This document shows, piece after piece, positions 33,359-36,801 of a stretch of DNA of 37,929 bases. The stretch comes from Nitrososphaerota archaeon. Lineage in GTDB: Archaea; Thermoproteota; Nitrososphaeria; Nitrososphaerales; Nitrosopumilaceae. Every line of letters begins with the position of its first letter. The first letter of the stretch is position 1. The translations under genes were made by a program, and so were the position numbers. The notes beneath the pieces are model-generated. The model saw nothing but the letters and a program-made list of their open reading frames with translations. It was not told the origin of the DNA and ran no database searches. Location of the stretch: positions 1 through 37,929 of the forward strand of contig JAGWGA010000017.1 in NCBI GenBank assembly GCA_028867675.1. The letters run 5' to 3'.

Positions 33359-33952
33359 ATGTTTGACAAGTTTCGAAAGAAAAAAGATGAATCAGAATCT
33401 GTTTCTTCGGGAACAAAAGATAGTCCTTCAGAGTTATCAGGTAAGACTTTTCAATACCAGCCAAAGGAAGAGAGTCCAAAGACATCGGAAGTTGTAGAAG
33501 AATCACGTTTTCGGCCTTCGGAACAAGTAAAAATACCCGAACCTATTCAACAAACTCGTATGAGCACATCAGGCGAAGATATAGGAATTAAGGCATTAAT
33601 GGACAAAAGAACCAAGTTAGAAGAAGCAATAGACTATGTGGGTCTCATGATTAAAGACCTTAAAGACAAGCGAACTAGCCTTGAAAAAAACATCGAGGAC
33701 GAGTCAGTAGATATTAAAAATCTAAAGGAAAAACTTGTCAAAGTAGGCCAATACATAGAAGAAGAAAAACAAGGTATTAGGACACTACAACAAAAAAGAG
33801 GTGAGGTTGAAAAAGAAGCAGATGATGTTGCAACAATGATTACCAACCTACGGGAAAGGCTGATCAGCATAGATCAAGTTGTAAACGAGGAAGGCAACAA
33901 GATTGCAAAATTCAAAGAGAACAGGCCAAAAAGTGAATCTACACTAACTTAG
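33359..33952 (+). CDS. Charged coiled-coil protein
   Basis: 197 residues from ATG at 33359 (MFDKFRKKKDES), chosen because of the TATA box. The N-third is Ser/Pro/Glu-rich and disordered. From about residue 75 a long coiled coil runs to the end in ~20-residue repeats (KRTKLEEAIDYVGLMIKDLK, KRTSLEKNIED, KLVKVGQYIEEEK, LRERLISIDQVVNEEG). There is no signal peptide, so it is cytosolic. It may act as a scaffold or chromosome/cell-shape factor (speculation). The stop overlaps the convergent gene at 33949 by four bases. Confidence 0.8.
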   Translation: MFDKFRKKKDESESVSSGTKDSPSELSGKTFQYQPKEESPKTSEVVEESRFRPSEQVKIPEPIQQTRMSTSGEDIGIKALMDKRTKLEEAIDYVGLMIKDLKDKRTSLEKNIEDESVDIKNLKEKLVKVGQYIEEEKQGIRTLQQKRGEVEKEADDVATMITNLRERLISIDQVVNEEGNKIAKFKENRPKSESTLT

Positions 33953-34287
33953 AAGGTAAAACTCTCTTTTACAAGAGCATCTAGATTTTCTTTAATTTCG
34001 TCATCATTAGATAATGAGCCTAGATCTCTTACCAGAACTTCAGTTGCCAAACATTGGTTTTTGGAATATTGGTAATAGCAATCTAGTTTTTCTTCATATG
34101 TTTTTGCACTATAGTATGTAGTCCAGAAATTTTCTGTAGAATTTTCTACATACAAAAGAAATTTTCTAATTATTGATTCAATCATAGGGGACGGATTGTC
34201 TTTTACTAATCCAATTAGAATCTGTTCTAGCTTGCTATCAAGATTTGATTCATAAATTAATGAATACACATCCCCGTCTTTTTTCAC
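33949..34287 (-). CDS. Small helical protein of unknown function
   Basis: 112 residues from GTG at 34287. Predominantly helical, with aromatic-rich FWTTYYSAKTYEEKLDCYYQY in the middle and an acidic end. No known motif. It lies tail to tail with the coiled-coil gene and next to the structured RNA region on its other side. Confidence 0.6.
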   Translation of the reverse strand: MKKDGDVYSLIYESNLDSKLEQILIGLVKDNPSPMIESIIRKFLLYVENSTENFWTTYYSAKTYEEKLDCYYQYSKNQCLATEVLVRDLGSLSNDDEIKENLDALVKESFTF

Positions 34288-34412
34288 GGGTCATTTACAA
34301 CACCGTATCATAAAAGCTTTCATATAGAAATTTTAAGATATTTTGAAAATCATGCAACAACTATAATCATTTAGATAAATTCAAAGATTTGAGTGCAAAT
34401 CATACATAAACC

Positions 34413-34420
34413 TTAAATAT
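34413..34420 (+). promoter_or_regulatory. TATA box of the candidate structured RNA
   Basis: TTAAATAT lies about 25-30 bases before 34441-34444, where the first helix of the RNA begins. It is the only clear TATA candidate ahead of the structured region. Confidence 0.45.
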
Positions 34421-34439
34421 TTTACTGCCGTAATAATAC

Positions 34440-34625
34440 TCCCATCAAAGGACATCCTCCCTTGATAGGAATCATGTAGGTAACGTGTGATGTTGTGAAG
34501 GTGAAAGTCCTTTAGACACAAGCATCCCGAGGTACCCCAAAGGAGAAATGATGACAATGGTCTTCATTGCTTTGAGTGTATCACACCCCGTGTGATCCAC
34601 CACACCCCTGCATGATAGAATTTTT
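34440..34625 (+). ncRNA. Probable structured non-coding RNA, multi-helix junction
   Basis: No gene fits this stretch, yet it folds well. A leading hairpin pairs 34444-34451 with 34460-34466. A long-range closing stem pairs 34471-34480 with 34607-34616 (ten pairs, one GU) and 34485-34489 with 34601-34605. Inside it are: P2, 34493-34501 with 34509-34521; P3, 34538-34542 with 34570-34574, extended by 34547-34555 with 34560-34568; and P4, a perfect 7-bp hairpin ATCACAC-CCC-GTGTGAT at 34580-34596. A T-run (34621-34625) follows the closing stem directly, and a TATA box precedes. Size about 180 bases. It does not match tRNA, SRP RNA or RNase P signatures that I know. GTGTG at 34485 could also pair inside P4, so alternative folds exist. 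Confidence 0.5.
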
Positions 34626-34713
34626 CCACCCATAACAAAGATAGACAAAATCATGGAGATTTTTCAAATGCATTATACAATAATGATGTCAAGTCTTTGA
34701 TTATCTGGAAATC

Positions 34714-35979
34714 ATGCAACTTCAAGATAAACGATGGATTTGGTATTTGTTACCAACCCAGATTACTGCTCAAGGATTAAGCACTGTAATTCCGCTTTAT
34801 GTAATTTTTTTGGGAGGTAACATTGGCGAAGTTGCAATAATATCTGCATTGCAAAATGGTACAGTAGCTATTGGCTCATTAGCTTGGGGAAAGATAATGG
34901 ATAGGTTTCATAATAAAAGAGCGATACTTGTTATTTCATCTTTTTTTGTTCTGCTCTGTAGCCTTGGGATGTACTTTACTAGTTCAATTAACATCCTTTA
35001 TGGATTAGCAGCAATTCTTGGATTTTTTATGGTAGCAAAAGGTCCAGTGACCCAACTTCTGGTAATGGAATCAGTACAGAAAAATCTCTGGAGTTGGTTA
35101 TTTGCAAAAACATCAATCATAAGCACTCTTGGAATGTTAGTAGCTATGGCAATAGGAGCATTTGGAAGTTTTTACTTTGATCTTAGGCCATATTTTTTGA
35201 TATGTGCCGCATCAAGCGGTGTAGCCATGGTTTTGAGTACTGCTGTAAAAGGCGAAAATATTCACCTTGAAAGAAGCAGTATTGCACACTCGTTACACGG
35301 TTTACGTTATTCAATTAGCAATTATCACTTTATTTTTCCAAAAAATCTTGAAGCATATGATTTTCGACATATTATTACATTATTCAAGGGAAGAATAAGT
35401 CATGAAATAGGCATATTTTACCTGGCTACATTTTTTTTCTATTTTGGAAGTAACATATACTTTACAGCCTGGACGCCCTTTTTGAAGAATCTAAAATATT
35501 CTGACGGGGATGTGTTTCTAAATTATTTCATCCAAATGGCAACAATGTTGGTCATATTTTTTATTGCTCCAAAAATTATATCAAAACTTGGGGAGGAGCG
35601 TTCAACCATGTTGGCATTCCTGCCAAGACTTTTGGCAGTAATGATTCCTGCTGTTTCATCCATATTTCTGGTAGGAAGTCTGGGTTTTCCAATGACAATA
35701 GCATCTGCCTCTCTTATGGTAATTGCATTTTCAATCTTTAGTACATCAAGCTCTGTGATATTTTTCAAAAGCATTCCTCAGGGTTTTGAGGGAAAATATC
35801 TTGGAGTAAACAGTGCAGTAACAGGGGTAGGAATATTTGCAGGTTCACTTGTTACTGGTGAACTAACAAAATTCTCAGGATATTCCATCATGTTTATTTT
35901 TGCAGCGGCAGTACTTGTAGTATCTCTGATATTATTCAGAGTATATTTCCGCTACAGACTATCACATAAGATGGTCTAG
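34714..35979 (+). CDS. Major facilitator superfamily transporter
   Basis: 421 residues with about twelve membrane helices in two halves. MFS loop motif between helices 2 and 3: GKIMDRFHNKRAIL (usual form G-x-x-x-D-R-x-x-R-R/K). The cytosolic central loop (residues about 190-225) is moderately long and basic. The substrate cannot be told. It has its own TATA-like ATTATACAA about 35-45 bases upstream, so it does not need read-through from the RNA gene before it. The stop overlaps that of the convergent CdvB gene by four bases. Confidence 0.88.
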   Translation: MQLQDKRWIWYLLPTQITAQGLSTVIPLYVIFLGGNIGEVAIISALQNGTVAIGSLAWGKIMDRFHNKRAILVISSFFVLLCSLGMYFTSSINILYGLAAILGFFMVAKGPVTQLLVMESVQKNLWSWLFAKTSIISTLGMLVAMAIGAFGSFYFDLRPYFLICAASSGVAMVLSTAVKGENIHLERSSIAHSLHGLRYSISNYHFIFPKNLEAYDFRHIITLFKGRISHEIGIFYLATFFFYFGSNIYFTAWTPFLKNLKYSDGDVFLNYFIQMATMLVIFFIAPKIISKLGEERSTMLAFLPRLLAVMIPAVSSIFLVGSLGFPMTIASASLMVIAFSIFSTSSSVIFFKSIPQGFEGKYLGVNSAVTGVGIFAGSLVTGELTKFSGYSIMFIFAAAVLVVSLILFRVYFRYRLSHKMV

Positions 35980-36614
35980 ACGTATCGGGTAGAGGAGGCG
36001 GATTGACCTGCAGGCACTGAGGGCATTTTTTCGTTTACTGCTGCCTCTGCAACTGCTGAAGCCTCTTGGAGAATCTTTTCTGATTCTTCGCTTGTTGCTT
36101 CAGAGTCAATTCCAAAGTCACCGCCGTGGAAGGTGTCAGTCATTAATCCACCGAGCATCTCAGTCATTCCTGTTAGCTCACGGTCTGCTTCTGGCATGAA
36201 TTTGATTAGTGAGGATCGTAGGTTCTTCATCAAGCCTATTGTTGGCATGATTGTAACTACTGTATCTCCTAGGTCGTGGAAGGTGCTAAGTCTTAGCTCA
36301 ATTTGTTCTAGAGCGATTCTTGCATTTCCTAGTAACTTTGTTACTTTTCTAACTTCGGATAATTCTTTTGATAAAACTTTACTTGTAGTGATATCGTGGT
36401 TTTGTGTTGCGACTACAATTCGTTTGAATAACTTTTCATCTCTTTGTTTTAGCTTTGTAATCATTCCATCGAGTTTTGTAATTTGAGTCTGGAGTCTCTT
36501 TATTCCATTCTCCAATCTTGGCTTTAATGCGCCTTTTGGCTTTAATACATCATTGAATTTTTCACCAAGACTTGGTGTTTGTGGTTTTTGCCAGTTGTTA
36601 GCAAATGTTGTCAT
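35976..36614 (-). CDS. cdvB: ESCRT-III-like cell division protein, CdvB paralog 2
   Basis: 212 residues from ATG at 36614 (MTTFANNWQKPQT); a longer frame to 36698 lacks a reason to be used. Alignment by eye with the copy at 4859-5500 holds along the whole length: PKGALKPRLENGIKRLQTQI, FKRIVVATQNHDITTSKVLS, LGNARIALEQIELRLSTFHD, LIKFMPEADRELTGM. The PSVP near the C-terminus is at the same residues (198-201). No broken-winged-helix domain, so probably not a direct CdvA binder. TTAAAAAC starts 29 bases before the ATG. It likely co-polymerises with the other CdvB at the division site. Confidence 0.9.
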   Translation of the reverse strand: MTTFANNWQKPQTPSLGEKFNDVLKPKGALKPRLENGIKRLQTQITKLDGMITKLKQRDEKLFKRIVVATQNHDITTSKVLSKELSEVRKVTKLLGNARIALEQIELRLSTFHDLGDTVVTIMPTIGLMKNLRSSLIKFMPEADRELTGMTEMLGGLMTDTFHGGDFGIDSEATSEESEKILQEASAVAEAAVNEKMPSVPAGQSASSTRYV

Positions 36615-36673
36615 GTCATACCAGTAAAAAAGTTGGTTTTTAATTTCCGGTGTGAAATACGGTTCACAGTATA

Positions 36674-36683
36674 CTAAATTTAG
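36674..36683. promoter_or_regulatory. Palindrome CTAAATTTAG upstream of cdvB paralog 2
   Basis: A perfect copy of the palindrome at 5559-5568. It starts 60 bases upstream of the ATG at 36614, and the neighbouring bases also agree (ACTAAATTTAGCTNACAA). No divergent gene starts close by, so here it can only serve the CdvB gene or the microprotein at 36802 (whose transcript would run through it). Confidence 0.5.
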
Positions 36684-36801
36684 CTGACAATGCCTCATGC
36701 TGCATATAGCATACGCTTTATTTTCATTTTTTATAAAAAACCAAAAATTCGTGGATATACCTGATTAGATATGATCCTACGCCTATCCCCGCATCAGAAA
36801 A

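Follow-up and report, generated by a model that had tools for sequence, protein, structure and literature searches.

A candidate stand-alone structured RNA gene in Nitrosotalea and related archaea

The locus and its transcription signals

The window analyzed here is a stretch of 37,929 nucleotides from a Nitrososphaerota archaeon of the family Nitrosopumilaceae (assembly GCA_028867675.1, contig JAGWGA010000017.1, positions 1 to 37,929). Window positions 34440-34625 fall in the gap between the small minus-strand gene c2 and a plus-strand gene for an MFS transporter, whose start lies ~90 nt 3′ of the RNA described below. The gene order c1, c2 (minus), RNA (plus), MFS, CdvB-like and TFB-like is constant in four genera. 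Within the window, the CdvB/ESCRT-III-like protein near the RNA is encoded at 35976-36698 and scores 151.6 bits against NCBIfam CdvB1/B2, which is under the cut-off. The label TFB-like, and the label RtcA-like used below, were read from protein sequences and not from database matches. The features of the RNA and its immediate neighbours are collected in Table 1.

Table 1. Coordinates of the RNA gene, its signals, its helices and the flanking genes in the window
Feature	Positions	Strand	Description
c2, divergent neighbour	33949-34287	minus	112 aa, small, all-helical
TATA box CTTAAATATTTT	34412-34423	plus	~27 nt 5′ of the RNA start; followed by CGTA at 34429-34432
RNA gene	34438-34626	plus	predicted transcript of ~185 nt; ends placed from the TATA distance and the U-tract
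P0, leading hairpin	34440-34470	plus	34440-34448/34462-34470; tip 34450-34452/34458-34460
P1 5′ strand, closing stem	34471-34480	plus	sequence nearly invariant; 98% of cells paired
P2 5′ strand, GTGTGA	34485-34490	plus	partner 34581-34586; both-sided changes in all 6 pairs
P3 hairpin	34491-34518	plus	34491-34494/34515-34518 and 34496-34501/34509-34514; coordinates from folds
P4	34520-34572	plus	AAGC 34520-34523/GCTT 34569-34572; encloses P4a and P4b
P4a	34525-34544	plus	34525-34527/34542-34544, 3x3 internal loop, 34531-34532/34537-34538
P4b, best conserved hairpin	34547-34568	plus	GAUGAC-AAWG-GUCAUC; window TGATGACAATGGTCTTCA
P5 remnant, GAGTG	34574-34578	plus	3′ arm gone in the window genome, kept in most relatives
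P2 3′ strand, TCACAC	34581-34586	plus	comparative pairing
P6 hairpin	34590-34605	plus	GTGTG 34590-34594/CACAC 34601-34605; 97% of cells paired
P1 3′ strand, closing stem	34607-34616	plus	comparative alignment
T-run ATTTTT	34620-34625	plus	TTTT invariant in 30/30 genus sequences
MFS transporter	34714-35979	plus	MFS_1; outside the RNA unit

The first-pass annotation of this DNA, made from the sequence alone, had found no plausible protein in the gap, and this agrees with the absence of a conserved reading frame among the homologues: open reading frames of at least 25 aa inside the stretch differ in strand, frame and length from one homologue to another. A covariance model, R1, matches the RNA at 34436-34630 with 143 bits. 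Folding of 34440-34625, a comparison proposed in the first pass, gives -57.4 kcal/mol against a mean of -41.4 (sd 3.8) for shuffled sequences, a z-score of -4.2, and 0 of 200 shuffles reach the energy of the window.

The TATA box and the T-run that had been read on either side of the structure are both in place, and both are conserved in homologues. The promoter form CTTAAATA[A/T]TTT..CGTA is kept in nearly all homologues, the TATA pattern has its sole match within the window at this site when up to 2 mismatches are allowed, and the box would act as the promoter of the RNA. The T-run directly after the closing stem is nearly invariant and is a probable terminator. Judged by sequence conservation, the RNA has a promoter and an end signal of its own, as would be expected of a stand-alone ncRNA gene, and it is presumably expressed. 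A pattern scan of the genome for the promoter gave no matches, with a pattern that also missed the window's own site. Since the TATA box, the T-run and the helices, where G-U cells outnumber A-C cells (85 to 45 in the wider alignment, though 73 to 71 within the genus), all point the same way, the RNA is assigned to the plus strand. Past the T-run and before the MFS gene, a further block, TAGACAAAACTATGG..TTATACAATAAT at 34642-34685, is kept in four genera and is probably the MFS gene's own promoter with a regulator site.

Conserved helices and covariation

The architecture starts with the leading hairpin P0; after it comes a closed domain in which P1 holds P2 and P6, and P2 in turn encloses P3, P4 (with P4a and P4b) and P5. 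The leading hairpin and the ten-pair closing stem of the first-pass annotation are present where it placed them, the stem joining ATCATGTAGG to CCTGCATGAT with one G-U pair. Its internal hairpins also lie at the places given; its 7-bp stem (ATCACAC 34580-34586 with GTGTGAT 34590-34596) can be formed by the sequence and appears in the minimum-energy fold, yet the conserved pairing is a different one.

The search for paired substitutions in relatives that had been recommended was performed on two alignments and a tree. In an alignment fitted to the covariance model (32 sequences, five genera), which leans toward the structure, both-sided changes occur in 42 of 63 pairs, with 198 double-changed cells compared to 59 in shuffled and 12-31 in slid controls. 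A MAFFT alignment, unfitted to the structure, gives 90 double-changed cells over the same number of pairs (63), versus 35 shuffled and 8-27 slid. On a tree derived from the neighbouring genes c1 and c2, ~82 branches carry a both-sided compensatory change versus 7-18 for slid pairs. The secondary structure is therefore conserved through compensatory change, and the shape of the RNA is preserved more than its sequence across these related archaea.

Individual helices differ in how they are constrained. P2, P3, P4, P4a and P5 show strong covariation, with both-sided changes in 8 of the 9 modelled pairs of P3, in all 4 pairs of P4, in all 5 modelled pairs of P4a, which is longer in genera g6, g8 and g21, and in all 5 pairs that P5 has in relatives. 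The window copy is slightly reduced by the loss of the P5 3′ arm, and alignment row L001 is gapped there. P0 covaries as well (96% of cells paired, one pair changing from AU to GC in 14 of 32 sequences) and in most relatives contains a 3x3 internal loop, AAA/CAA, under its tip. In folds, P0 and P4a are alike in having short GG/CC tips over A-rich internal loops, usually 3x3. The core of P4b, GACAAWGGTC, is invariant across the genus while its outer pairs covary, and the most distant homologue (L072) keeps the hairpin with a single change. The near-invariance of the P4b tip and P1 suggests contacts in which their sequence is read.

The first-pass annotation had also proposed that GTGTG at 34485-34489 could pair with either of two partners and so support two states. 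When the window is folded alone, the minimum-energy structure does pair this segment with 34601-34605 and forms the 7-bp hairpin at 34580-34596; its energy is -57.6 kcal/mol versus -54.4 for the comparative structure, which is 3.2 kcal/mol weaker. Across relatives, the comparative pairing (P2 and P6) has 93% of cells paired and 39 double-changed cells versus 10.5 shuffled, compared to 75% and 7 versus 6.1 for the alternative. GTGTG thus pairs within P2, CACAC at 34601-34605 closes P6, and the alternative shows no covariation. Consequently, the two-state idea rests on the GTGTG/CACAC repeats of this single sequence, and the relatives hold no mutually exclusive pairing backed by covariation of the kind that marks a riboswitch or attenuator.

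Distribution and relation to neighbouring genes

A DNA search covering 101 genomes finds clear copies in most of the genus, and a pattern scan of named genomes shows the genus to be Candidatus Nitrosotalea, ammonia-oxidising archaea of acid soils, with matches in N. devanaterra LN890280, in Nitrosotalea sp. TS and FS and in many MAGs. The first covariance model, built from 30 sequences, identifies the RNA in 33 of 37 Nitrosotalea genomes, with one copy each, and in four more genera of the same family, scoring 97-117 bits in g6, g8 and g21 and 43 bits in g9. A second model, trained with those sequences included, raises the scores to 127-145 bits and 68 bits, respectively. Over these searches, 10 genomes from the four additional genera contain the RNA. 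The next-best scores are below 20 bits, and no further convincing match is found in two samples of 400 genomes each, one drawn from the order and one from the class. A search of 40 genomes with laxer filters likewise yields no additional convincing match. Two weak matches (G268 and G311, ~19 bits) do not contain the core hairpin and are taken as chance, and viral contigs scanned with a core pattern give no match. Across Nitrosotalea and the related genera, the RNA would be about 180-230 nt long. Four genomes of the genus have no RNA match, including the 96% complete G013, which also has no c2 and in which the block was either lost or missed by the assembly; the RNA may therefore be dispensable.

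The reading favoured here is a stand-alone RNA acting in trans, and its main rival is a local partnership in which the RNA and the divergent c2 gene form a two-gene module, with c2 binding the RNA or the RNA regulating c2. The arrangement of the two is fixed wherever the locus was found, c2 adjoining the RNA in all four genera that have this locus in common, and G013, which is nearly complete, has neither. Because the RNA is always beside c2 except in g9, it may have a local role. However, c2 orthologues in four other genera are accompanied by no detectable RNA copy, no recognisable homologue lies next to c2 in genera g17, g22, g2 and g14, and the g9 genome holds the RNA with no c2 match. Profile searches assign c2 to no Pfam or NCBIfam family, and its predicted fold (pLDDT 84, all-helical) has no significant or informative PDB match. 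The module is thus a minor possibility, ahead of the other rivals.

Orthologues of c2 are present in further genera of the same family. In G057 (genus g22), an RNA-like stretch at L137:4782-4960 immediately precedes the c2 orthologue on the same strand. This stretch has a promoter, CCTTAAATATCATTTTCACGTA, much like that of the RNA, an 8-bp closing stem and one hairpin resembling P0 (13.6 bits with filters off). It is held by two near-identical genomes only and is possibly a rearranged relative or a different ncRNA. A candidate second site for the G057 promoter turned out to sit within a gene.

Another local reading is that the RNA is a cis-regulatory leader of the MFS gene, resembling a riboswitch or attenuator, in which transcription would stop at the U-tract except when the fold is altered by a ligand or protein. 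Such a leader would account for the shared strand, the short distance to the MFS start, the gene order constant in four genera and the competing helices in the window, which differ little in energy. The RNA is nevertheless kept, at 158-205 bits, in four Nitrosotalea genomes in which the MFS gene is lost or decayed (G016, G017, G020 and G034). At loci L024 (Nitrosotalea sp. TS), L023 and L028 no MFS gene precedes the CdvB-like gene, at L027 only MFS fragments are left, and in all of these the RNA and its promoter are intact. In g9 (L072), the RNA comes after an RtcA-like gene and has neither c2 nor an MFS gene nearby; its TATA box, P0, P4b, P6, P1 and T-run are all in place. The RNA is therefore not tied to one downstream gene, and no constant linkage to a regulated gene is seen. 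These losses and the relocation in g9 argue that it is not the leader of the MFS gene, and the promoter-like block that the MFS gene has past the T-run and the lack of covariation in the competing pairing further reduce this reading to an unlikely one. Two possible contacts with translation signals were also rejected: the P1 3′ strand could pair around the MFS start codon (ATCATGCAAC in the window), but relatives do not preserve this match, and the P0 loop (AUCCUCCC), considered for an anti-Shine-Dalgarno role, is variable and partly paired within P0. With so much compensatory change, and retained in single copy as a neighbour decays, the RNA is almost certainly functional.

Comparison with known RNAs and proposed role

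The covariance search against known families that the first pass had called for gives no match to Rfam release 15 in the window or in relatives at curated cut-offs, and only chance-level matches at lax ones. In keeping with the lack of an SRP or RNase P signature reported earlier, neither archaeal RNase P RNA (RF00373) nor archaeal SRP RNA (RF01857) matches here, and both are found on other contigs of the same genome, at 176.5 bits (G000:C111) and 113.9 bits (G000:C11). The clear, separate RNase P RNA excludes a diverged RNase P RNA, which had been the principal alternative of the first pass. The archaeal RNase P RNA is similar in being multi-helix with a long closing stem, and the SRP RNA in being a stable structured RNA, but the latter differs in size. 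The upstream sequences of the two genes differ from that of the RNA, so the idea of a shared stable-RNA promoter was dropped.

Membership in a known family, whether RNase P, SRP or a box C/D or H/ACA guide, is consequently very improbable. UGAUGA in P4b resembles box C, and C/D models match at chance level; in relatives, compensatory changes replace the box C letters, and no box D or 3′ ACA is seen. By eye, no 3′ ANA box or pseudouridylation pocket with k-turn is seen, and Rfam gives no H/ACA match. The almost invariant P1 sequence might speak for a DNA-level feature or for chance inverted repeats, but both are contradicted by the covariation, which lies far over the slid controls, and can hardly be credited. 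The proposal of a new thaumarchaeal RNA, in contrast, is supported by homologues in five genera of a single family, among which covariation is strong.

The nearest in kind, judged by published description, appears to be Tan1 (Thalassoarchaea ncRNA 1), a 229-nt orphan ncRNA identified by RNA-seq in marine group II Euryarchaeota (PMC5069720). Like the window RNA, it is an archaeal orphan of comparable length for which a complex structure has been proposed, and it is confined to one lineage; it differs in its marine euryarchaeal host and in its discovery by RNA-seq, and the two are compared by description only. Comparative genomics has also yielded 104 orphan structured RNA motifs (PMC2864571), which are likewise defined by covariation and genomic context, often lineage-restricted and in many cases presumed to act in trans; those in Rfam release 15 give no match to the window RNA. 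The available text of the N. devanaterra genome paper counts seven small RNA genes, unnamed there (PMC4836417), and the locus may be annotated among them. Nothing on this RNA, and no study of lineage-specific ncRNAs in ammonia-oxidising archaea, came up in literature searches on ncRNA in these archaea and in Nitrosotalea.

The best explanation, held with reasonable confidence, is a stand-alone, single-copy structured ncRNA gene that has a TATA promoter and a U-tract end of its own and whose product is probably the trans-acting part of an RNP. Transcription would begin from the TATA promoter and end at the U-tract, and the transcript would fold into P0 and then the domain closed by P1. Its independence from neighbours, its presence as a single copy and the double nature of its constraint, with covarying helices and invariant tips, suggest that the RNA acts in trans as an RNA-protein particle, probably as its scaffold. 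In such a particle, the covarying helices would form the scaffold, and proteins would bind at the hairpin tip with its invariant GACAAWGGUC and at the similar A-rich internal loops in P0 and P4a.

The RNA appears to be a new family with its own architecture within a known broad kind, the lineage-specific stand-alone ncRNA genes, and to bring no new principle. More tentatively, it could found a new functional class among archaeal RNAs, as the core RNA of an RNP that only Nitrosotalea and its relatives have; this is doubtful, and if true the RNA would perform a role that no known RNA class performs. The covariance alignments permit annotation of the RNA in these genomes, and the RNA gives probing and pull-down work in cultured Nitrosotalea a defined target.
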